Source: Levilactobacillus huananensis
GTDB lineage: Bacteria > Bacillota > Bacilli > Lactobacillales > Lactobacillaceae
Assembly (NCBI RefSeq): GCF_003946145.1
Contig: NZ_RHOC01000001.1
Location: 62,001-126,000 of the forward strand
Direction of reading: 5' to 3'
Length of the DNA: 64,000 bases
A program made the translations under genes and the position numbers. A model generated the notes under the pieces. That model had not been told where the DNA came from. It worked only from the letters and a program-made list of their open reading frames with translations, and did not search any database. Each line of letters begins with the position of its first letter. Position 1 is the first letter of the stretch. This document shows positions 1 through 12,553 of this stretch, in pieces.

Positions 1-3000
1 CGACTGATGGGAAGACGTGGACACAAGCTACGGCTTCAACGTCAGTTTCGGATAAAAAAGCTTCCGTAACCTTGACGCCAAATGCTGCCGGAACATATTA
101 CTACCAATATGTTGCTTCTGGTAAAAAAGGTGTGTTGGGCGCTGGGGGATCATTTAAGAAGGCAAGTAACGTTCTGACGGTTGTGGTAACCGATGCGAAT
201 GGAACTTATACGGACCAAGCTAAGAAGGCCGCTAGTTTAGCTGCAAATTACGCTAAGCAAGCCGGTAGTCAGGCCACTGCGGTCAGTGAAGCCGTGATTA
301 CCATGAACTCCTTAGCAGACTTCGAACCCGATGAGATGGTTTCCGGAAAGGTTTACGCGACTGCTGCCGCTGCAGCATCTAAGAGCGCCGCTTCGTATGC
401 CGCTGCTGCAGCTACTGAAGCGCAATCAACCGCTGCTGCACAGAGTGCCGCAGCAACCTTGGAAGCAGCTGGGGACTACAGTGGGGCTAGTTCAGCCGCC
501 TTAGTTGCAGCCGCAAGTGCCGAAAAGGTTTCTTCTTACAGTGTATTGGCTAGCTCAGCCGCGGCCTTAGCCCGTGAAAACGTGGATAACGCGCTGTCAG
601 AAGCTGCTCGGATTACGCAGGACGCTACTATCGGCAGTTACTTGAAGGATAGTTACGCCGCGACTGCCGCATCAACGGCCAGTTTAGCCGCATCATTAGC
701 AACAGAAGCAGCAACGCATGCTCAAGATGCTAACAATGCTTACAACAACGTGCCACAATTTAATTCTGGTGCAACGGTTGCCAACTCAATGGCCGCCAGT
801 GCAGCTGCCAAGACCGCGTCATATGCAGCTAAGGCACAACAATACGCAACATCGGCAGCCAATGCCAAAGATTATACAGCAGCTTCTGGAGCAGCTAAGG
901 ATGCGGCGTCAAACCTGATCCTAGCTGAATCTGAATCCGTAGAAGCTTCTAGTGCTGCTAGTGATGCTACGAAGATTATCGTTGACGCACAGTCGTCTTA
1001 TGTTTCTGGTGTTGCATCCGCGGCTCACGAAGCCAATTCTTTAGCAAACCAAGCAGCTATTCTGGCCGCTAGTGTTGCCAACTCATTATCAAGCAGCATT
1101 AAGGCTAACACGAGTTTAGGAGCCTCATATGTTTCTGACACCCAGGAATACGCACAGGCTGCAGAATTAGCCGCAGCTTCTGGGGATGCCGCAGCAATGA
1201 CTGCCAACAGTTACATGACGCAAGCGTCTTCAGCTGTTAGTGCCGGAAACTTTATCGCTGCCAGTTCCTTTGCCGCAGCTGCTAGTTCGGCCTTAGCTGA
1301 TGCTAACTCATATGCTGCTGCCGCGACGGTTTCAGCTTCATCTGGGACAGAAGCAGCCTCGTATGCAGTCAACTATTCTAACGATACAAGTTCTTACAAA
1401 AAGAAGCCTTCCGGTAATGCCACGATGATTTGGGGGATTCCAATCACCAACGGCTACACGCAACAACCGGCAACGATGACGTCAACGAAGCAAGGCCAAA
1501 CGTTTACTTTAACGGGGACTTCACGGCTGGGGATTATCAACCTGGCAGCGATTACGACCAGTGTGACCTGGTATGTTCAAGTTAACGGTAAGTGGATGAC
1601 GACTGACGATGCCGTTAAACAAGGTTATTTGGAAAGTGCCACCGCGGAAAACAACACTGGGTGGGGGATGAAGATGTCCACCGCTAGCACGTTGACCGTA
1701 AAGACTAATGATTCCTTTAAGGGAACGTTACTATTCCAGATGTACTCTGATTATGGAATTTTAATCGGGGCTCAGCTATACAGTGACCTAGCCGAAGTTG
1801 ATGTTTATGATAAAGAAATCCCAGCCACTGGGATCACGATCAGTGGGAACGATTATCTGTTGAATTCCGATCCAGGGACCTACGTCGCGACGACTAATCC
1901 AACGAACTCTACCAGTACCATTACTTGGAGTAGTAGTGATGAAAGCATTGCAACTGTTAATAATGCCGGGGTTGTTAGTGCAACTTCTGCAAATGCACGG
2001 GGAACAGTGACGATTACCGCTACGGTCACGAATGCCGACGGATCAACTTATTCTGACTCCAAGGTTATCCAAGTTGGTAATGGACTTGAGGACCAGGCTG
2101 TTGATGCTGGAAACTCTGTTATTTTCCAACCAGATGCTGGTGCCGGTAATACTGGGGATGCTTCCAAGATTACCTACCAGTGGTATTATTCAGCAACTGC
2201 TGATGGTACTGATATTGTGAAGTTAGACGGTCAAACAGGAGATACGCTGAATTTATCTGATGTGAAGACCTCGCAAGCTGGTTATTACTTCCTGAGAATT
2301 ACGGCGAAGACGACGCTCGGACAGACTGTTACTGTCGATTTAGGACGGGCTTACCTGACGGTTAACGCCGTGGACAGTGATGATGCTTCTAATGCGGCAT
2401 TAGCCGCAGCCTCTGAGGCAGCAGATGCTGAAGAGTATGCAAAATTAGCTAGCTCATATGCTGATGTTGCCAACAAGTATGCTAATGCAAATACGTCGAA
2501 TGCTGAGATTGCTGAAGCAGCCTCTAATGCTGCTTCAGCCGCCTCAGCAGCTAGTTCAGCAGCTGCCGCAGCTTCGACGGCACAAGCTAATGCCGAAGCA
2601 GCCCAGTCAGAAGCCAATGCAGCACAAAATGTTGCCGGTGATAACGCTGCAGCTAAGTCTGCCGCTGAAAAAGCTAAATCTGCGGCTGATGAAGCTAAGG
2701 CAGCTAAAGATAGTGCAGCAGCTGCCGCCAGTGACGCCAAGTACTGGGCAGGTGTAGCTGCAGCAGTTGATGACAACTCTGATTCAGACAGTGACTCAGA
2801 CTCCGACAGTGATTCAGATTCCGATAGCGACTCTGATTCAGACAGTGACTCAGACTCCGACAGTGATTCAGATTCCGATAGTGATTCCGACTCTGATAGT
2901 GATTCCGACTCCGACAGCGATTCCGACTCAGACAGTGATTCCGACTCGGATAGCGACTCAGACTCTGATAGTGATTCCGACTCCGACAGTGATTCAGATT

Positions 3001-5864
3001 CCGACAGTGATTCGGATTCAGATAGTGACTCAGATTCTGATAGTGACTCGGACTCCGACAGTGACTCGGATTCCGATAGCGATTCCGACTCGGATAGTGA
3101 CTCAGACTCAGATAGTGACTCAGATTCCGATAGTGATTCAGACTCGGATTCCGATAGCGATTCCGACTCGGATAGTGACTCAGACTCCGACAGTGATTCA
3201 GACTCCGACAGTGACTCGGATTCCGATAGTGACTCGGACTCCGACAGTGATTCGGATTCCGACAGTGATTCGGATTCCGACAGTGACTCGGATTCCGATA
3301 GTGATTCAGACTCCGACAGTGACTCGGATTCCGATAGTGATTCAGACTCCGACAGTGAATCCGACTCGGATAGCGACTCGGATTCCGATAGCGACTCAGA
3401 CTCAGATAGTGATTCGGATTCTGATAGTGATTCCGACTCGGATAGCGACAGCGACTCAGACTCAGATAGTGATTCGGATTCTGATAGTGATTCCGACTCA
3501 GATAGTGACTCGGATTCCGATAGTGATTCCGACTCGGATAGCGACTCAGACTCAGATAGTGATTCGGATTCTGACAGTGATTCCGACTCGGATAGTGACT
3601 CGGATTCCGACAGCGATTCAGACTCAGATAGCGATTCCGACTCGGACAGTGACTCGGATTCCGACAGCGATTCCGACTCCGACAGTGATTCCGACTCCGA
3701 CAGTGATTCAGATTCCGATAGTGACTCCGACTCGGATAGTGACTCCGATTCCGACAGTGACTCGGATTCCGACAGCGATTCCGACTCAGATAGTGATTCG
3801 GATTCTGACAGTGATTCCGATTCCGATAGTGATTCCGATAGCGATTCGGACTCCGACAGTGATTCCGATTCCGATAGTGACTCAGACTCGGACAGTGACT
3901 CGGATTCCGATAGCGACTCCGACTCCGACAGTGATTCGGATTCTGACAGTGACTCCGATTCTGACAGTGACTCGGACTCCGACAGTGATTCGGATTCCGA
4001 TAGTGATTCCGACAGCGACTCAGACTCAGATAGTGATTCCGACAGTGACTCGGATTCCGATAGCGATTCCGACTCAGACAGTGATTCCGACAGTGACTCG
4101 GATTCCGATAGCGATTCCGATAGTGACTCGGACTCCGATAGCGATTCCGACTCAGATAGTGATTCCGACTCCGATAGTGACTCGGACTCCGATAGCGATT
4201 CGGATTCCGACAGCGATTCAGACTCGGACAGTGACTCGGATTCCGATAGCGACTCCGACAGTGACTCAGACTCCGACAGTGATTCGGATTCTGACAGTGA
4301 TTCGGACTCTGACAGTGATTCAGACTCGGACAGTGACTCGGATTCCGATAGTGATTCTGATAGCGACAGCGACTCAGACTCAGATAGTGATTCGGATTCT
4401 GACAGCGACTCCGACTCCGATAGTGATTCGGATTCTGACAGTGATTCCGACTCGGATAGCGACTCCGACTCAGATAGTGATTCCGACTCCGACAGTGATT
4501 CGGATTCCGATAGTGATTCAGACTCTGATAGTGACTCGGACTCCGATAGCGATTCTGATAGCGACAGCGATTCCGACTCCGACAGTGACTCAGATTCCGA
4601 TAGTGATTCTGATAGCGACAGCGACTCAGACTCAGATAGTGATTCGGATTCTGACAGCGACTCAGACTCGGATAGTGACTCGGATTCCGACAGCGATTCC
4701 GACTCAGATAGTGATTCCGATTCGGATAACGACTCGGATTCCGACAGTGACTCAGACTCGGATAGTGACTCAGACTCGGATAGTGACTCAGACTCGGATA
4801 GTGACTCGGATTCCGACAGCGATTCCGACTCAGATAGCGATTCCGACTCGGACAGTGACTCGGATTCCGACAGCGATTCAGACTCCGACAGTGATTCAGA
4901 TTCCGATAGCGACTCGGATTCCGACAGTGACTCAGACTCCGACAGTGATTCAGATTCTGATAGTGATTCAGACTCTGATAGTGACTCAGATTCCGACAGT
5001 GACTCAGACTCAGACAGCGACTCAGACAGCGACTCGGATAGTGACTCCGATTCCGACAGTGATTCCGACTCAGACAGTGACTCGGATTCCGATAGTGATT
5101 CCGACTCAGACAGTGATTCCGACTCGGATAGCGACTCAGACTCAGATAGTGATAGCGACTCCGACAGTGATTCAGATTCCGACAGTGATTCAGATTCCGA
5201 TAGCGACTCTGATTCCGACAGTGACTCCGACTCCGACAGTGATTCGGATTCCGATAGTGATTCAGATTCTGACAGTGACTCCGACTCAGATAGTGGCTCA
5301 GACGCTGATGGTGATTCAGATTCCGACAGCGACGCAGGCTCTGACAGTGATGCCAACTCCGACAGTGATTCCGACGGAAGTGCCGGAGATGGTGGAAACA
5401 GTGGTTCAGGCTCAGGTTCAGGTTCAGGCTCAGGTTCAGGTATCAGCGGTGGCACAAATGGTGGTTCAAACAGTGGCGCCGCTTCTGGTACCAATGTATC
5501 GGGCGCTGCAGGTGGCACAGCAACAACGTTAGGTTACGCTGGTGATACCGGTCAAGGTCAAGAAACACCAGTGGACTTAACAGCAGCTGGGACGACTGGA
5601 ATTTCTGACAATGCTAATCAGGATAGTTCGGATAAGCAGAGTAAGTCAGGAGATTCAAAGGATTCAAAGACTAGTGATGGTAACAATGTCAAGAATTCTG
5701 GGAATTCTGCTGATGCAACTTCGGCACCTGATAACAATGAAAACAATCACACCACGTTCTGGGGAGCAATTGTCGCAGCGATTGCTGCCGCAACAGGTGG
5801 TTCATGGTGGTTCTTCGGTCGTAAGCATGGGCAAGATAACAGTGATGATGATCACACAGTTTAG
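1..5864 (+). CDS. Giant Ser-Asp repeat surface protein (5' end outside window)
   Basis: The reading frame is open from base 3, so the true start, signal peptide and N-terminal domains lie upstream; 1953 residues are visible. In order: a partial Ig-like domain (to about nt 200), an Ala-rich stretch with many ASYAA-type motifs (about 213-1390), an unassigned beta-rich domain (1390-1830), a Big_2-like Ig domain (about 1830-2080), a second Ig-like domain with a YQWYY motif (2090-2370), another Ala-rich helix (2380-2770), an almost pure Ser-Asp tract (2778-5294), a Ser/Gly/Asn-rich tail, and a hydrophobic segment (about 5757-5815) followed by GRKHG and an acidic tail. No LPXTG is visible before that segment. 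The architecture matches wall or membrane-anchored adhesins with a low-complexity stalk, as in staphylococcal Sdr/Clf proteins and serine-rich adhesins. The three downstream glycosyltransferases suggest the stalk is glycosylated. The surface role is inferred from architecture; the ligand is unknown. Confidence 0.88.
2778..5294 (+). repeat. SD-dipeptide tract coded by 18-bp repeats (GAYTCNGAYTCNGAYAGY)
   Basis: This in-frame tract encodes 839 residues that alternate Ser and Asp, with only two exceptions: Glu at codon 3357 and Asn at codon 4728. Serine codons follow a higher-order order TCN-TCN-AGY, giving an 18-bp unit with free wobble positions; sometimes a 12-bp unit (TCN-AGY) occurs. This is the same consensus described for the R region of staphylococcal ClfA. 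Such tracts form an extended stalk and can change length by slippage or recombination. Confidence 0.95.
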
Positions 5865-6074: not shown

Positions 6075-7715
6075 ATGAAAAAGGCGTTAATTAAGCGTTT
6101 GAAAGGGGAACTAATCAACCAAGGAAATTTGCAGGATCCTGTGACAGGGCAGGCCACGTTGGTCGTTTCAATTTCCGATAAACGGCATCGTGCAGGCGTC
6201 ACATTTGTGCGGGCTGAGTCGTTCAAAAAGGCCTGGATTCGGATCGAACATCAGTTAAATCAAATAGCGTTTCCTTCATGGGTTCGAGTTGAAACGATTC
6301 ACTCTATTCAACAAATTAGTCGAGAAAAATTTGCAATAGCGTTGGCTAAAATTACGAGAGCTAATTTCTGGCGTCGGGGAGTGAGTTTCGATGAGGACTT
6401 TCAAACGGCCTTGTTAGAAATGGAAATTAATGGTCATGAATTCTTTGAATCAGACCAAGCCTACAAAGTGGGAAAGACGACAGCCAAGGCAACGGTGAAT
6501 TATGCGGCAATTACAGAATATCTCACAAAACGTGATGGAAATGTCTCGATGGACATCCAAGCTGGTGATAGTGTCTGGGTCTTTGCAACCAGTGGTGTTT
6601 TTACCGATGGCAATCGGGTTTGGAGATTAGAGGATAACGATCCACAATTACTAGGAGTTCGCCAATTGGCCGATCCTAAACAAGAGCTCGCGGATTATGT
6701 GGGGTTAGGTGAAACCTATCTGAAAAAGCAAATCAAAGACGATGGTCAGTTTGTCTATGGCTACTTTCCAAGTATTAAGCGGGTTCTCAGTAATTATAAT
6801 AGTGTGCGGCATTTCTCTTCGATTTATGCTTTATTGGAAGCGATTACCTTCACTAAACGGCCAGCAGATCTTAAGCAAGCCAGACATGCACTCCAATGGG
6901 GTCTTGACCATTTAACATTGGTGAAAGATGAAGCACTATTTGTAGTCGAGCAACCCAAAGAAGGTGAGGCAGAGTTGAAGCTTGGGGCGCAGGCAATGCT
7001 AATACTGGCACTGTGTAAATACCAAGAGGTGACTCACGAGAAGCGATACGAGAAACAAGCCATGCAAGCCTTCAGAGGAATCGAAGCCTTCCGACAGCCA
7101 GACGGCCGGTTCAATCATGTGCTACGGTCTGATCTGAGTGTCAAGAATGCTTTTCGAATTATCTACTATGAGGGTGAAATTGCTTTCGCCATGTCACGGC
7201 TATATGCTCTGACTCATGATGACCAGGTGAAGATCCGGATTCAGGAAACGTTAGATTTCATGGTGGCCCACGATTATGGTAAGAATCATGATCACTGGAT
7301 TGCATACGCAATCAACGAGGCTCTTGGGATCTTCGGAAATAACCGAGATTATATGATTATGGGCCTGAAAAATGCTTTTGAGGACTTAGAGAACATTGAG
7401 CATAAAGTAATGCCCTACCCAACACGGTTGGAGTTATTGACGGCTGCCGTTAAGATGACGGATACCATCCGGGCCACAGGTAATGGCGACTTGCTGGAAC
7501 CTTATGATGTTGCTACGCTTCGCTCTGTTTGGCAGTATCGAGCCGAGTATGAGTTACTATCAGGCAGTTTCTTTCCTGAAGTGGCAATGTATTTCTATCA
7601 TCCAGCTAAATTGGTCGGGGGGTTCTATGCCCGCAATGACCACTTCCGAACACGGATCGATGACTGTGAACATTTCTTATCCGGATTGATTAATTACTAT
7701 GACTATAAGTACTAG
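6075..7715 (+). CDS. Unknown 546-aa protein, probable helical-toroid domain
   Basis: I do not recognise a named family. There is no signal peptide or membrane segment, so the product is probably cytoplasmic. Residues 1-195 form a mixed alpha/beta part ending in a beta-rich stretch (AGDSVWVFATSGVF). Residues 210-546 are repeating helical hairpins with motifs such as HFSSIYALLEA, LGAQAMLILALCKY and YYEGEIAFAMSRLY, the pattern of alpha/alpha toroids found in six-hairpin glycosidases and sugar-processing enzymes. The start ATG follows GGGAGG by 11 nt. It opens the run that continues with a 67-residue membrane protein (15 nt downstream) and three glycosyltransferases. A role in handling or trimming the glycan on the SD-repeat protein, or as a partner of the transferases, is inference from position only. 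Confidence 0.75.
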   Translation: MKKALIKRLKGELINQGNLQDPVTGQATLVVSISDKRHRAGVTFVRAESFKKAWIRIEHQLNQIAFPSWVRVETIHSIQQISREKFAIALAKITRANFWRRGVSFDEDFQTALLEMEINGHEFFESDQAYKVGKTTAKATVNYAAITEYLTKRDGNVSMDIQAGDSVWVFATSGVFTDGNRVWRLEDNDPQLLGVRQLADPKQELADYVGLGETYLKKQIKDDGQFVYGYFPSIKRVLSNYNSVRHFSSIYALLEAITFTKRPADLKQARHALQWGLDHLTLVKDEALFVVEQPKEGEAELKLGAQAMLILALCKYQEVTHEKRYEKQAMQAFRGIEAFRQPDGRFNHVLRSDLSVKNAFRIIYYEGEIAFAMSRLYALTHDDQVKIRIQETLDFMVAHDYGKNHDHWIAYAINEALGIFGNNRDYMIMGLKNAFEDLENIEHKVMPYPTRLELLTAAVKMTDTIRATGNGDLLEPYDVATLRSVWQYRAEYELLSGSFFPEVAMYFYHPAKLVGGFYARNDHFRTRIDDCEHFLSGLINYYDYKY

Positions 7716-7730
7716 AGAGGAGTTACTTGC

Positions 7731-7934
7731 ATGCTAGCGTTAACCAGTATCTTTGCCTACAAGAAGATTCAGTTCTTTCTACGGTTGTCCATCTATATTG
7801 TCTTGGGAATCGTGGTGTTGGTTTTCCGATCCATAAATAAGCGGAAGACTCGTAAACGGTTGGATGAACGAACGGAATACATGATGAAACACACGGAAAA
7901 AAATGATGAAGGTAAGTATCCCTGGGAAGAGTAA
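7731..7934 (+). CDS. Small single-pass membrane protein in glycosyltransferase operon
   Basis: This 67-residue product has one hydrophobic segment (about residues 16-33, RLSIYIVLGIVVLVF core), followed by a strongly basic stretch (NKRKTRKR) and an acidic C-terminal end. By the positive-inside rule the C-terminus should face the cytoplasm. A GAGGAG ribosome site stands about 9 nt before the ATG. It lies 15 nt after the 546-residue gene and 36 nt before the first glycosyltransferase. It could tether the transferases to the membrane or to a secretion site; the function is unknown and nothing else in the sequence settles it. Confidence 0.72.
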   Translation: MLALTSIFAYKKIQFFLRLSIYIVLGIVVLVFRSINKRKTRKRLDERTEYMMKHTEKNDEGKYPWEE

Positions 7935-7970
7935 CGGGAATAACTAGTCGAGAAGAATGAGGTGGCAGTC

Positions 7971-9485
7971 GTGTATTACTTTATTAATGAATACATTTTG
8001 CAAAAGAATTCGAGTGTGGAACATACCGCAATGAACCGAGTAAAACTGTTTAACCATTACCAGGAACCCGCAAAAATTGTGACGAAAATCTATGATCGAT
8101 TATTACATCGAACATTGACGACTTTTGGTCTTGCCGATAACGAAGTGGTGAACATGTTCGACTTCTTCCAACAGGCAGCAAATGTACCAACGAAGGTTAT
8201 GCGGACTGATGATTTACGCTTGCCAGTAGAAACCGAAGTGGTTGTGGGGGCCAACTTCAGTCAAGTACTCAATGGCGATGACAATCTCGGACGGGTGGGA
8301 TTCATCCCGGGAACCATTGGTCGGGTGTTCTATCATGAACACGCGGACAATCAGGGTAATTTGATCGAAACAGATCTGTGGGACTGGCGAGGATTTCGCT
8401 CAGCTACCCAGTACTTTGGTCAGAATGGCAAGTTAGTCTTAGAACGTTACTACACGCCAACTGGTCAGACAGCCCTTGAAATTTATAGTGTACCCGATAC
8501 GAATGGCAACCCACTAGTATCTCGGGTAATTCTGAAGGATTATCAAGGTCAAGGTGACCGCTTCTTCCAGAATCAGGATGACTTATTTGAATTTTTCCTG
8601 GCAGAACTCAGTAAACAAGATACCGGGACAACAACTTTTATCAGCGATCGTCCTGGTACTGGGGTACGTCCGCTACTTAACTTAGATGATGGGTCGCGGA
8701 AGTATATTTACCTTCCAATCAATCATGCAGTCGCACCAGATGATCCGCTTCATGGTGACCTGGATGGTTTCTTGAAACCGGCTTTTGAACACTTTCGGCA
8801 CTTTGATGGCTTCATTACTGGGACCGAACAACAGGCAGAACATCTTCGGACACGCTTCCCTGAGGCCAACGTCTTTGATATGCCGGCTGTTACGATGGCC
8901 CCACTAGCCAAGGATGGCAGCGATGAGGTTGCGCCAACGGAACGTCGGGCCAACAGCTTGCTATACGTCGGACGGATTGCCCAAGACAAGCAGATCGACC
9001 AGCTCTTACGGATGTTTGCCTTAGTTCATGATCGCGTTCCTGGTGCGACCTTTGATCTCTACGGTTACGGTGATCATGAGTATCAGAAGAAAATGACCGA
9101 TCTGGTCAGTGAACTTCATCTTGAACACAATGTGACCTTCAAAGACTATGATCCAGAACTGATTCAGAAGTACGATACTTATCAGGTCTTAGTCAATATG
9201 TCGATTGCAGATGGTGGGCCAATGGGGATGCTGGAAGCGATGAGTCACGGGATTCCAGTTGTCAGCTATCCGTTCAATTACGGACCCAAGGATTTGATTG
9301 TAGATGGCGACAATGGTTACTTGGTTAACCGAGGTAATTCATTGGCGATGGCAGAACACGTTGTCGAACTTTTCAGCAAGCCTAAGGCACTTCAGACCAT
9401 GAGTCACGCCGCTTATCAGACAACCAATGCGACCTGGACACAACGCCGGGTCTGGAACCGTTGGCAACGTTTCTTACAGGCATAG
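7971..9485 (+). CDS. GT4 glycosyltransferase, TarM/SdgB/GtfA-like, paralogue 1
   Basis: The 504-residue product belongs to the retaining GT-B family that includes TarM (wall teichoic acid), SdgA/SdgB (SD-repeat glycosylation in staphylococci) and L. plantarum GtfA/GtfB. The N-terminal half is the DUF1975-like acceptor domain typical of these enzymes; the C-terminal half is the nucleotide-sugar domain with GRIAQDK carrying the conserved Arg and Lys. The usual EX7E motif is changed: Asp414 stands where the first Glu is expected, with Glu422 in place. The start is taken at GTG 7971, not at the in-frame GTG 7962, because GAGGTGG at 7959-7965 overlaps the latter and sits 5 nt before the former, and because both paralogues also start with MYYF/MNYF. 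The variant motif makes reduced activity, or a chaperone-like role beside an active paralogue, possible. It has no membrane segment. Confidence 0.85.
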   Translation: MYYFINEYILQKNSSVEHTAMNRVKLFNHYQEPAKIVTKIYDRLLHRTLTTFGLADNEVVNMFDFFQQAANVPTKVMRTDDLRLPVETEVVVGANFSQVLNGDDNLGRVGFIPGTIGRVFYHEHADNQGNLIETDLWDWRGFRSATQYFGQNGKLVLERYYTPTGQTALEIYSVPDTNGNPLVSRVILKDYQGQGDRFFQNQDDLFEFFLAELSKQDTGTTTFISDRPGTGVRPLLNLDDGSRKYIYLPINHAVAPDDPLHGDLDGFLKPAFEHFRHFDGFITGTEQQAEHLRTRFPEANVFDMPAVTMAPLAKDGSDEVAPTERRANSLLYVGRIAQDKQIDQLLRMFALVHDRVPGATFDLYGYGDHEYQKKMTDLVSELHLEHNVTFKDYDPELIQKYDTYQVLVNMSIADGGPMGMLEAMSHGIPVVSYPFNYGPKDLIVDGDNGYLVNRGNSLAMAEHVVELFSKPKALQTMSHAAYQTTNATWTQRRVWNRWQRFLQA

Positions 9486-9500
9486 AAGGGAGGACGCCTC

Positions 9501-11051
9501 ATGTATTATTTCTTAAATGACAACATGCAGTATTCTAAATCAGGGATTGAACACGCGGAGATTAACCGGCTCCATCTCTTCCGTAAAAACGGTATTCCAG
9601 CTAAGATCGTGACGCGAATCTTCTCAATGGACCTGACTAATATTTTGAAACAGGCTGGTATTCCTCGCGAGAATTTCGTGAACTTATTTGAATTTTTTTG
9701 CGGAAGCCAAGATGTGATCACCAAGCCGTTGACGCGCAACGACTTTTCATTACCGAGCAACACCACCAGTACCAGGAAGGATAATCAACTTCAGGTGTTC
9801 TCGCAAGGGAAGATGCTTATGATTATCTACTTGCGAAAGGGAACTGAGGATGAGATTAGCAACATCCAGTATTTTGACGTGAATGGACGGACCCTCAAGA
9901 TGGTTTGGTGGGATACCCGTGGCTTTAAATGTCTGGAACAGCTCTTCGATTGGGATGGTAAGATTGTCCAGGAACAGTACTTCGGACCAGATGGCTTGGT
10001 ACACATTGAGAAGTGTCATCTGATTGATCATGCTGGCAAGGAACATCTTTCCTGGCGTGTCTTGAATTATGGGGATGGTAGTAGCCGGACCTTTAATGGA
10101 ATGAACGGCCTGACACGATTCTTCTATGACGAATTGAACGCCAATGGGGAAACAAACGTCTATATTTGTGACCGAACTGTGGAATGCGACTGGGCGCTCT
10201 TCAATATGCAGACGCCAGCCTACAAGGTTTTACACCTGCACAATGACCACGTGGCCGATCCAACAGATATGATTCACTCGCCACTTAACAACAACTATCA
10301 AAATGCTTTAATGAACTGGCACAAGTGGGATGCCGTGATCTCCGCTACACCGGAACAGTCACAAGACGTGGTCGACCGTTTTGGCACTGACATTCCAGCA
10401 TTTACGATTCCAGTTGGTTATGTGACGGACGAGCGGATGGCGGCCCCACAAAAACCATTCAGCAAACGGCAGAAGCATCTTGTGGTTCACGTCGCGCGGT
10501 TGGCTCCTGAAAAACAACAGAATCATTCGATTCAAGCCTTTGCACAGGTTCACGAGAAGTTTCCAGATGCTCGACTTGAACTTTGGGGTTACGCTAACGG
10601 CGACGTCGAGAAGACCCTCAAGCGGCAAGTGGCCGACAGCGGCTTGAGTGATGTGATTTCGTTTAAGGGTTACACTCACGACATCGCCTCAGTCTATGAC
10701 CGCGCACAGCTTGGCCTACTGCCGAGTCGTGCTGAAGGATTCTCACTGATGTTACTGGAAGCCCAGTCCCATGGGGTCCCAATGATTGCCAACGATGTGA
10801 AATATGGGCCTAGTGACATCATTGCCAATGGCAAGAGTGGCCTATTGACAACTGATGGTGACGTTCAAGGGTTAGCCGACGATATGATAGCCTTATTGGG
10901 TGATCAAGATCGGTTGGCTAACTTCAGTGCGGCAGCTTATCAGAATGCACAGCGCTATTCAGAAGATGCGGTTTTTGCTAAATGGCAAGTTCTGCTGGAC
11001 TACTTTGATCACCAGACGCAAGACCAAGGCGCTGTGACTGAGGAGGCCTAA
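9501..11051 (+). CDS. GT4 glycosyltransferase, TarM/SdgB/GtfA-like, paralogue 2
   Basis: This 516-residue enzyme aligns by eye over its full length with its neighbours: the N-terminal YFLNDNMQYSKSGIEHAEIN block, a beta-rich DUF1975-like acceptor domain, and a C-terminal GT4 domain with ARLAPEK (Arg and Lys donor contacts) and an intact EX7E motif at Glu412/Glu420 in EGFSLMLLE. It should transfer a sugar from a nucleotide donor to an acceptor Ser/Thr or polymer hydroxyl in the cytoplasm. GGGAGG precedes the ATG; the gap to the preceding gene is 15 nt. Given its place beside the SD-repeat protein, that protein is the best candidate acceptor. Teichoic-acid glucosylation (TagE type), the usual automatic annotation for this family, is the alternative. 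Confidence 0.9.
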   Translation: MYYFLNDNMQYSKSGIEHAEINRLHLFRKNGIPAKIVTRIFSMDLTNILKQAGIPRENFVNLFEFFCGSQDVITKPLTRNDFSLPSNTTSTRKDNQLQVFSQGKMLMIIYLRKGTEDEISNIQYFDVNGRTLKMVWWDTRGFKCLEQLFDWDGKIVQEQYFGPDGLVHIEKCHLIDHAGKEHLSWRVLNYGDGSSRTFNGMNGLTRFFYDELNANGETNVYICDRTVECDWALFNMQTPAYKVLHLHNDHVADPTDMIHSPLNNNYQNALMNWHKWDAVISATPEQSQDVVDRFGTDIPAFTIPVGYVTDERMAAPQKPFSKRQKHLVVHVARLAPEKQQNHSIQAFAQVHEKFPDARLELWGYANGDVEKTLKRQVADSGLSDVISFKGYTHDIASVYDRAQLGLLPSRAEGFSLMLLEAQSHGVPMIANDVKYGPSDIIANGKSGLLTTDGDVQGLADDMIALLGDQDRLANFSAAAYQNAQRYSEDAVFAKWQVLLDYFDHQTQDQGAVTEEA

Positions 11052-11053
11052 GC

Positions 11054-12553
11054 ATGAATTATTTTGTTGCGGTGTACTTTAACGCAAAGTTAACTGGAAT
11101 TGAGCAAGGCCAAGTTAACCGCTTGAAACTCTTTAAGGCGGCTAATCTTCCGGCTAAATGTGTGTACACGCGATACAATCCTGGTATTCATGCCAATGCC
11201 GAGCGCTTTGGTATTGGTCCTGACTGTTTTAGCCTCTATGACTATTTTCAGAATACGGTGAGTGTGCCGGTTAAAGCGATTGACTGGTGCAAATATTGGG
11301 AAGAAACGTGTCATTATCGGATTCAGAAGGTGGCTTCGGCACCCGATGTTCGGGTCTTTACCACCGAGGGCCGTTTTCTCATGTATGCGCATTTTAGAGA
11401 TGAATCATTGAAACAATTGGTTTACCTAAACTATTTCGATGCGAAACGGATGAAGGTTAAGCGGGAACATTACGACAACCGGGGCTTCTTAAGCCGGGTG
11501 AGTTACCTACACGATAATCAAAAGGTTCAAAATGAGGTGTACTTGGATACCGAGGGACACGTCAAAATGGAAAAGTATTACACTAATGACCCTGGCGAAC
11601 CGAAGCTACATCAGATTATCTTGAATGATTATCGCGGTCAGCAATGGTTTTTTGATACGGAACGCGAGCTTCAGACGTTCTTCTTCAATGAACTCTATCA
11701 GGCGGGAGATGTGTACTTTAGCGATAAGAATGGGCCATTGGCGCCAGCATTTGGTGCGACACGTCCGGATGTGACTGTGTGTGCGGTTCTTCACAGTACA
11801 CATGCCCGTGACCAAGCGAATGTGATCGAAGGGCCCCTGAAGGGAACGTATCGGTACGTCTTGGATCATCCCGAACAGTTTGATCGAATCATTGTTTCGA
11901 CTGAATTACAGCGAACTGATCTGAGGGAACGTTTCCCAGAGTTGCCACCCATTGTGGTGATTCCGGTTGGGTATACGACGAAGCAACGAGTCAATCTGCG
12001 AAAGAAACAGCCCCACCGAATTATTGGGGTCGCGCGACTCTCACCAGAAAAGCAAGTGATGGAACAGGTCCAAGTGGTTGGTCGACTCGTTGATGAATTC
12101 CCAAATGTCGAGTTACATCTCTTTGGATTCGGAAGCCGGGTTGAGGAACAACGTCTACGAGATTACGTGACAGAACACCAGCTAGAGGATCATGTTTTCT
12201 TCAGAGGCTATCTGCCTGATCTGACGGCTGAATACGAGCAAGCTTCATTAGAAATGGTGACAAGTGTCGAGGAAGGTTTCTCCCTGACGACTCTCGAAGC
12301 GCTAAGCTTTGGCGTACCTGTCATTAGTTATGATATTCGGTATGGACCAAATGAAATGGTTATCGACGGTGAAAATGGAAATCTCGTCGAACGAAACAAT
12401 CAAGACCTTTTGTACTGGAAGGTTCGCGATTACTTAAGGGATCCCAAGCGTCAGCGTCGTTACATGAAAAACAGTCTCAAGCGCGCCAAAGATTATTCGG
12501 CTACGGCAACTCGCCAGAAATGGCAGATGTTGTTAGCTGATTTGGCTGATTAA
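11054..12553 (+). CDS. GT4 glycosyltransferase, TarM/SdgB/GtfA-like, paralogue 3
   Basis: The 499-residue product is the third tandem paralogue. It starts MNYFVAVYF, has the same two-domain layout, ARLSPEK for the donor-site Arg/Lys, and EX7E at Glu407/Glu415 in EGFSLTTLE. Its ATG lies 2 nt after the preceding stop, with the ribosome site GAGGAGG inside the end of that gene, so the two are translationally coupled. Divergence between the three copies suggests different roles, for example first-sugar addition, extension and a support subunit, as known for pairs such as SdgA/SdgB or GtfA/GtfB. Sugar and order of action cannot be read from the sequence. Confidence 0.9.
   Translation: MNYFVAVYFNAKLTGIEQGQVNRLKLFKAANLPAKCVYTRYNPGIHANAERFGIGPDCFSLYDYFQNTVSVPVKAIDWCKYWEETCHYRIQKVASAPDVRVFTTEGRFLMYAHFRDESLKQLVYLNYFDAKRMKVKREHYDNRGFLSRVSYLHDNQKVQNEVYLDTEGHVKMEKYYTNDPGEPKLHQIILNDYRGQQWFFDTERELQTFFFNELYQAGDVYFSDKNGPLAPAFGATRPDVTVCAVLHSTHARDQANVIEGPLKGTYRYVLDHPEQFDRIIVSTELQRTDLRERFPELPPIVVIPVGYTTKQRVNLRKKQPHRIIGVARLSPEKQVMEQVQVVGRLVDEFPNVELHLFGFGSRVEEQRLRDYVTEHQLEDHVFFRGYLPDLTAEYEQASLEMVTSVEEGFSLTTLEALSFGVPVISYDIRYGPNEMVIDGENGNLVERNNQDLLYWKVRDYLRDPKRQRRYMKNSLKRAKDYSATATRQKWQMLLADLAD

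Follow-up and report, generated by a model that had tools for sequence, protein, structure and literature searches.

The locus described here raised the question of what a protein that matches no sequence family does between an adhesin with long Ser-Asp (SD) repeats and a set of glycosyltransferases (GTs). The window, a stretch of 64,000 nucleotides from Levilactobacillus huananensis, contained the features listed in Table 1. The toroid ORF was real and started with ATG, and the gene lay directly downstream of the adhesin ORF. Since the adhesin frame was open at the left edge of the window, the adhesin gene begins before it. The adhesin carried runs of 96 and 322 xD units, starting at 2778 and 3360 and all SD except one, and a hydrophobic stretch at the C-terminus; the LPXTG motif was searched for in it and not found. 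Three SdgA/SdgB-type GTs were encoded near the toroid gene. Between 5700 and 8100, a sigma-70 scan gave 4 promoters versus a mean of 4.9 in shuffles, and a terminator scan gave 4 versus 1.6.

Table 1. Positions of the adhesin, toroid, and glycosyltransferase features in the window.
Feature	Position	Strand	Remarks
Ser-Asp-repeat adhesin ORF	72..5864	+	frame open from the left edge of the window
GtfC-like toroid protein	6075..7715	+	546 aa; ORF call, homologues, AlphaFold2 model
α/β N-domain, residues 1–197	6075..6665	+	weak likeness to AMMECR1 at most, in fold but not in sequence profile
AGE-like (α/α)6 toroid, residues 198–546	6666..7712	+	conserved residues at inner-helix N-ends
67-aa ORF, one hydrophobic stretch, C-terminus GKYPWEE	7731..7934	+	between toroid and first GT
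SdgA/SdgB-like GT4 glycosyltransferase 1	7962..9485	+	Pfam/NCBIfam profile matches
SdgA/SdgB-like GT4 glycosyltransferase 2	9501..11051	+	Pfam/NCBIfam profile matches
SdgA/SdgB-like GT4 glycosyltransferase 3	11054..12553	+	top score SdgB, under its cut-off

A preliminary description had reported a helical-toroid protein without a signal peptide and without a nameable family. The ORF, its homologues, and the AlphaFold2 model confirmed the protein. No signal peptide was apparent, since the N-terminus (aa 1–45) had no hydrophobic stretch on the Kyte-Doolittle scale; the best 10-residue mean was 1.24. The protein matched 0 Pfam and 0 NCBIfam families, its best PHROGs match had an E value of only 0.32, and a PDB sequence search gave none. 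The lack of a name held for Pfam, NCBIfam, and PHROGs, but not for the literature, where the GtfC described for the pls locus fits the staphylococcal relatives. The separate N-domain and the 67-aa ORF before the first GT were details beyond that description.

An AlphaFold2 model of the whole protein was obtained with a pLDDT of 79.8 and a pTM of 0.79. In this model, residues 201–545 comprised twelve long helices plus four short helices, matching (α/α)6 toroids; residues 229–239, 360–362, and 498–529, which are parts of the pocket, had a pLDDT below 50. Within the fold families listed by the structural second look, the top chains for the toroid were cellobiose 2-epimerases and other members of the AGE superfamily (N-acylglucosamine and cellobiose 2-epimerases, YihS), followed by GH76, terpene cyclases, and GH88-type enzymes. 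The match to 3vw5_A had a VIA Z of 27.7 (313 aligned, rmsd 3.2, 12% identity), and GH76 and GH88-type chains had a Z of about 21–24. A profile of 66 family members matched a profile of 32 AGE sequences with a probability of 93.8%, compared with 78.9% for GH127, 20.2% for GH88, and 0.18–0.29% for three unrelated controls. Among 18 diverse members, weak matches to Pfam hydrolase or epimerase models included GH127 in 3 (best 1.2e-06), GH88 in 4 (best 1.9e-05), and GH76 in 5 (best 0.0076); these GH families have the same overall fold as the toroid, but the window protein itself matched none of them. Structure prediction and profile comparison, both proposed in the preliminary description, placed the toroid nearest to the AGE superfamily, with the GH families further off, and the likeness to sugar-processing toroids noticed there was upheld. 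The window protein differs from AGE members in its low identity to them, its extra N-domain, and its genomic setting beside adhesin repeats.

The N-domain, modelled alone, formed a separate α/β domain with a pLDDT of 82.6. Its nearest structures were 1vaj, 1zq7, and 1wsc, which are AMMECR1-family structures. The VIA Z was 6.9 for 1vaj and 5.6 for 1zq7, and even the best match (Z 6.9, 140 aligned, rmsd 4.0) was under the level at which the tool is trustworthy. AMMECR1 kinship by sequence was rejected, as the hhalign comparison with a profile built from 20 AMMECR1 sequences gave 0.30%. The weak fold match, to which the sequence profile lends no support, may reflect merely a common arrangement.

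Among 66 members with less than 90% identity to each other, 44 positions were at least 97% conserved. Forty of these were in the toroid: 25 near the N-ends of inner helices, none near those of outer helices, and 15 elsewhere, with the N-end zone taken as −6 to +8 residues around the N-ends of six inner and six outer helices. The near-invariant acid/base set was R245, H246, K302, H348, R361, E368, D406, H407, R489, E502, R525, R527, D529, D530, and H533. Since the conserved positions clustered at inner-helix N-ends of the model, the toroid cavity likely contains a conserved polar pocket. The conserved acids were D406, E368, D529, D530, and E502. The histidines of the CsCE catalytic centre are numbered His188, His247, and His377 (PMC5726027), with a spacing of 59/130, and the conserved H348, H407, and H533 had a spacing of 59/126. 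This spacing was dropped as a sign of an AGE-like triple-His centre because the profile alignment set E368 on the AGE histidine of the NTHLH motif; the other two histidines of the centre were in stretches without reliable alignment.

Toroid homologues occurred in Bacillota and Proteobacteria. Homologues of full length from the same genus and family shared 46–86% identity with the window protein. In Levilactobacillus, 18 loci (loci are numbered with L) carried the toroid gene, with a broken or partial copy in three (L004, L016, L017). A relative was found in 22 of 301 genomes from the family, the own genome counted, in 45 of 295 from the order, in 10 of 63 from another class, and in 12 of 398 from the phylum, two of the latter being partial or weak. 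By tblastn, relatives with at least 80% query coverage and about 29–35% identity were found on 54 plasmid records from Agrobacterium, Staphylococcus, Enterococcus, Acinetobacter, Sulfitobacter, Variovorax, Rhizobium, Listeria, Klebsiella, and Nitratireductor. INPHARED phage records gave 8 matches, and IMG/VR viral contigs gave no relative. A subgroup from another Bacillota class (L150–L152) had apparently unrelated adjoining genes and no xD adhesin nearby.

Gene neighbours were counted in 87 loci, which were picked by toroid homology independently of those neighbours. They comprised 18 related loci, 16 loci from 18 plasmid records (of the 54 matched), two longer stretches of those plasmid records, and loci of 2 among the 8 phage records. 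The genome searches supplied 11 of 11 non-own phylum matches less one, 10 of 21 non-own family matches, 20 further order matches, and 7 further class matches, selected for diversity. L047, L054, and L056, which were superseded or duplicated, and L117, whose match was too weak, were excluded before counting, and the short loci L020–L044 and L059–L106 were left out; broken toroids (L004, L016, L053) and partial ones were retained. An xD-repeat ORF was defined by at least 6 consecutive xD units, with x mostly S, T, or A.

A same-strand xD-repeat ORF was found within 10 kb upstream in 71 of the 87 loci and within 600 bp in 65, compared with 0 of 20 control regions (19 kb each, from 11 genomes of toroid-bearing relatives). 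When toroids were clustered at 90% identity, the link was kept in 60 of 75 clusters, and at 60% identity in 18 of 27. The majority x in the 71 linked loci was S or T in 32, A in 38, and mixed in 1. Since S, T, or A vary while Asp is constant, the residue common to the linked repeats is Asp. Both LPXTG-type and type I secreted adhesins were linked.

The other 16 loci had no upstream same-strand repeat, and some of them stop at a contig edge. No xD repeat was in range in L008, L016, L113, L116, L143, L150–L153, L157, and L231–L234; L116 had just one base of sequence upstream, and the only xD run of L231 (Acinetobacter), of 8 units, was 15.5 kb upstream. The 159 Ala/Gly-Asp units of L045 were encoded by an opposite-strand gene, and the Ala-Asp gene of L115 was downstream of the toroid. 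The Levilactobacillus brevis type strain (L016:9980-11809) had a broken toroid with no SD run adjoining and retained the GTs and the small ORF. In Agrobacterium (L048:208-4419), a BapA-type adhesin with about 320 Ala-Asp units stood next to genes for type I secretion and to a fusion of toroid and MurF. The toroid gene of L. monocytogenes, presumably lmo1798 by gene order, adjoined that of an Ala-Asp LPXTG protein. A count of 226 Ala-Asp repeats is given for Lmo1799 (PMC8687577), and lmo1798 is listed among GWAS hits (PMC12472024).

In a 2017 study, SACOL0051 (GtfC) of S. aureus is a 538-aa protein encoded directly downstream of pls, with GtfD convergent, and CAZy offers no Gtf prediction for it (PMC5230774). 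With the COL genes, gtfD alone gave weak Pls glycosylation and gtfC plus gtfD gave full glycosylation; with the 1061 genes, both were needed and a gtfC mutation abolished Pls glycosylation; gtfC without gtfD gave none (PMC5230774). The five staphylococcal toroids found here were all 538 aa (L237 without ATG at that start) and had 29.5–33.3% identity to the window protein. One of them adjoined a gene annotated pls (L238), and another had a convergent GT (L049). The S. epidermidis toroid was 68.6–69.3% identical to the other staphylococcal toroids, and the GtfC identity was reported as 69% (PMC5230774). Therefore, from their length, their position (a pls neighbour in one, a convergent GT in another), and the 69% identity, the staphylococcal toroids are very probably GtfC.

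GtfC, with the same 538 aa as these toroids, resembles the window toroid in being encoded downstream of an SD-repeat adhesin and beside a GT; the window toroid differs in preceding three same-strand GTs and the small ORF. The accessory Sec system co-encodes GtfB, a glycosylation chaperone that enables repeat-adhesin glycosylation and is a GT-B fold paralogue of GtfA, whereas the window toroid is predicted to have another fold. The glycosylation of Sdr proteins in S. aureus is attributed to SdgA/SdgB alone (PMC8561734), so that a toroid factor is not universally needed.

Partner enzymes were sought within about −4.6 to +6 kb with three home-made profiles (GT, Mur, CapA), and loci without a match to these were scored as having none. 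The 32 S/T-majority loci had GT in 21, GT plus Mur/CapA in 4, Mur/CapA in 4, and none in 3; the 38 A-majority loci had GT in 1, Mur/CapA in 14, and none in 23. An SdgA/B-like GT was not detected near the toroid in 37 of the 38 Ala-Asp loci. Two of the 23 Ala-Asp loci scored as none had ATP-grasp ligases, which left 21 of 38 without a detected partner. In L125, a YheC/D-type ATP-grasp protein followed the toroid; in Agrobacterium (L235:9980-14962), a 1,660-aa ORF combined the toroid with several ATP-grasp domains downstream of an Ala-Asp BapA-type adhesin. In seven of these 21 (L058, L109, L111, L114, L134, L135, and L146), one neighbour each was scanned against Pfam, and no ligase was found among them. 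A sortase gene lay directly 3' of the toroid in two Ala-Asp loci (L111:8284-8922 on the minus strand and L134:10502-11095), and L145, an S-type locus scored as none, had a family-2 glycosyltransferase nearby. Single-ORF fusions of the toroid were found to GT (L046, L108), to Mur (L045, L048, L055, L137, L233), and to CapA (L153).

The association of GT with S/T repeats was 25/7 versus 1/37 in the raw table (Fisher p 1.2e-11) and 2/1 versus 2/12 at 60% clusters (p 0.12). Mur ligase was present in L107 (27 of 29 S), and a Mur fragment in L050 (93 of 134 S). The tracking of partner type with the repeat letter, GT with S/T, was suggestive only. All 5 of the 5 Mur partners tested matched MurF (TIGR01143) best, under its cut-off. 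Two fusions beside xD adhesins (L147:10349-13837 and L155:2272-5478, minus strand) joined MurF-like, D-Ala-D-Ala-carboxypeptidase-like (S11), and PGA_cap parts; the PGA_cap part matched the lasso-peptide epimerase MslH weakly, in short stretches far under the cut-off. Two Levilactobacillus loci (L012, 4837-13134, and L019) had an SD adhesin and a toroid with no SdgA/B-like GT detected and instead a gene run with a PGA_cap protein; in L012, this run also had a weak HAD-type match. A small ORF with a terminal YPWE motif followed the toroid in at least 28 of the 87 loci, all Lactobacillales (29 were flagged, and L148 looks spurious).

The results suggested that the toroid is probably a cytoplasmic accessory factor dedicated to (xD)n adhesins, which would bind the repeat and act on it before export for a partner enzyme. 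This was backed by homology, the predicted fold, the conserved positions at inner-helix N-ends, the linkage to xD adhesins, and single ORFs that join the toroid to GT, Mur ligase, or ATP-grasp ligase, and by the published need for GtfC, very probably a staphylococcal member, in full Pls glycosylation. We infer direct contact of the toroid with the repeat and its timing before export. The acidic (xD)n repeat would enter the toroid cavity, rich in Arg, Lys, His, and Asp, in the cytoplasm, and the action of the toroid would enable the partner enzyme to modify the repeat fully. The partner would be the three SdgA/B-like GTs here and MurF-like or ATP-grasp ligases elsewhere. Since the toroid is common to S-D, T-D, and A-D repeats, it would most simply act on what these repeats share.

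The preliminary description had also offered a chaperone role for the SD protein, with which the gtfC genetics and the adhesin linkage are compatible. A pure holder or presenter, which keeps the acidic repeats extended and feeds them to GTs, ligases, or the export machinery with no chemistry of its own, is possible, if on the unlikely side. It would account for gtfC giving no glycosylation alone yet improving GtfD (PMC5230774), and it suits the several unrelated partner enzymes, the Ala-Asp loci without a detected partner (21/38), the linkage to both LPXTG and type I secreted adhesins, and the small membrane-type ORF after the toroid in Lactobacillales. However, the dense near-invariant acid/base set, much of it at inner-helix ends, resembles an enzyme pocket. 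SdgB holds the SD peptide in its own groove (PMC8561734), so that a presenter would be superfluous there and the toroid is not needed merely for repeat recognition. The acid/base pocket of the model tips the balance slightly towards an enzyme, and this pocket is somewhat more probably catalytic than a site for binding only.

It is very unlikely that the toroid is itself a glycosyltransferase, despite the name GtfC and the label poly(glycerol-phosphate) alpha-glucosyltransferase that databases give to relatives. GtfC is required for full glycosylation, but CAZy predicts no Gtf, and no stain appears when gtfC is present without gtfD (PMC5230774); moreover, the window protein has no GT match in Pfam or NCBIfam and a predicted AGE-like toroid, not GT-B, no SdgA/B-like GT was detected near the toroid in Ala-Asp loci (37/38), and the label possibly spread from toroid-GT fusions such as P0003. 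A sugar-processing hydrolase or 2-epimerase, which would trim or convert SD-repeat glycans or free sugars for the GTs, is in keeping with the fold and profile kinship to AGE and glycoside hydrolases and is nevertheless hardly probable. The binding or trimming of glycans, suggested in the preliminary description, and trimming by a six-hairpin glycosidase in particular, were not supported, as Ala-Asp loci mostly had no GT nearby and loss of gtfC lowers glycosylation, which trimming would not raise. The alignment of E368 with an AGE histidine also argues against such an enzyme, and, judging from PMC5726027, the AGE mechanism should not work on a sugar that is linked through its reducing end.

The family may mark a post-translational modification that has gone unrecognised, in which ligases would amidate or peptidylate Asp of adhesin stalks; this is put forward tentatively and rated as rather unlikely. 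In Ala-Asp loci, the toroid was accompanied by or fused with ATP-dependent carboxylate-amine ligases of two unrelated types, MurF-like and ATP-grasp (the L235 fusion and L125), which suggests that Asp itself may be modified there. Since the Asp side chains are the sole carboxylates in an Ala-Asp stalk, these ligases would act on Asp of ribosomally made repeats. A preparing step in which the toroid turns Asp of the repeat into D-Asp or isoAsp, with no change in mass, is, taken alone, quite improbable; it leans on the AGE-like proton-transfer fold and on the weak PGA_cap match to MslH, a peptide Cα epimerase (PMC10406935).

For Pls, unmodified masses are reported for SD and SDSD peptides, yet the repeats resist thermolysin and pronase (PMC5230774); this would fit such a step, although glycosylation alone may be the explanation. 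The masses in that paper for Ser-Asp and Ser-Asp-Ser-Asp, 221.08 and 423.14, were plain when recomputed, and the printed SDAD mass, 407.17, was 0.03 above the computed 407.14 (PMC5230774). Plain masses from gtfC-bearing strains speak against Asp of Pls carrying a stable added group; acid hydrolysis could strip labile groups from these peptides. In open-licence PMC, no paper was found that joins these repeat-adhesin, Mur ligase, and CapA families.

The likely reading of GtfC, which has been called a glycosyltransferase, is thereby corrected: it is very probably one member of a family of Bacillota and Proteobacteria, mostly unnamed and widespread, that is tied to repeat adhesins whose common residue is Asp. 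The MurF-like and ATP-grasp ligases of Ala-Asp loci point towards a modification that apparently no one has sought so far, and they raise the testable question of whether Asp in adhesin stalks is chemically altered.
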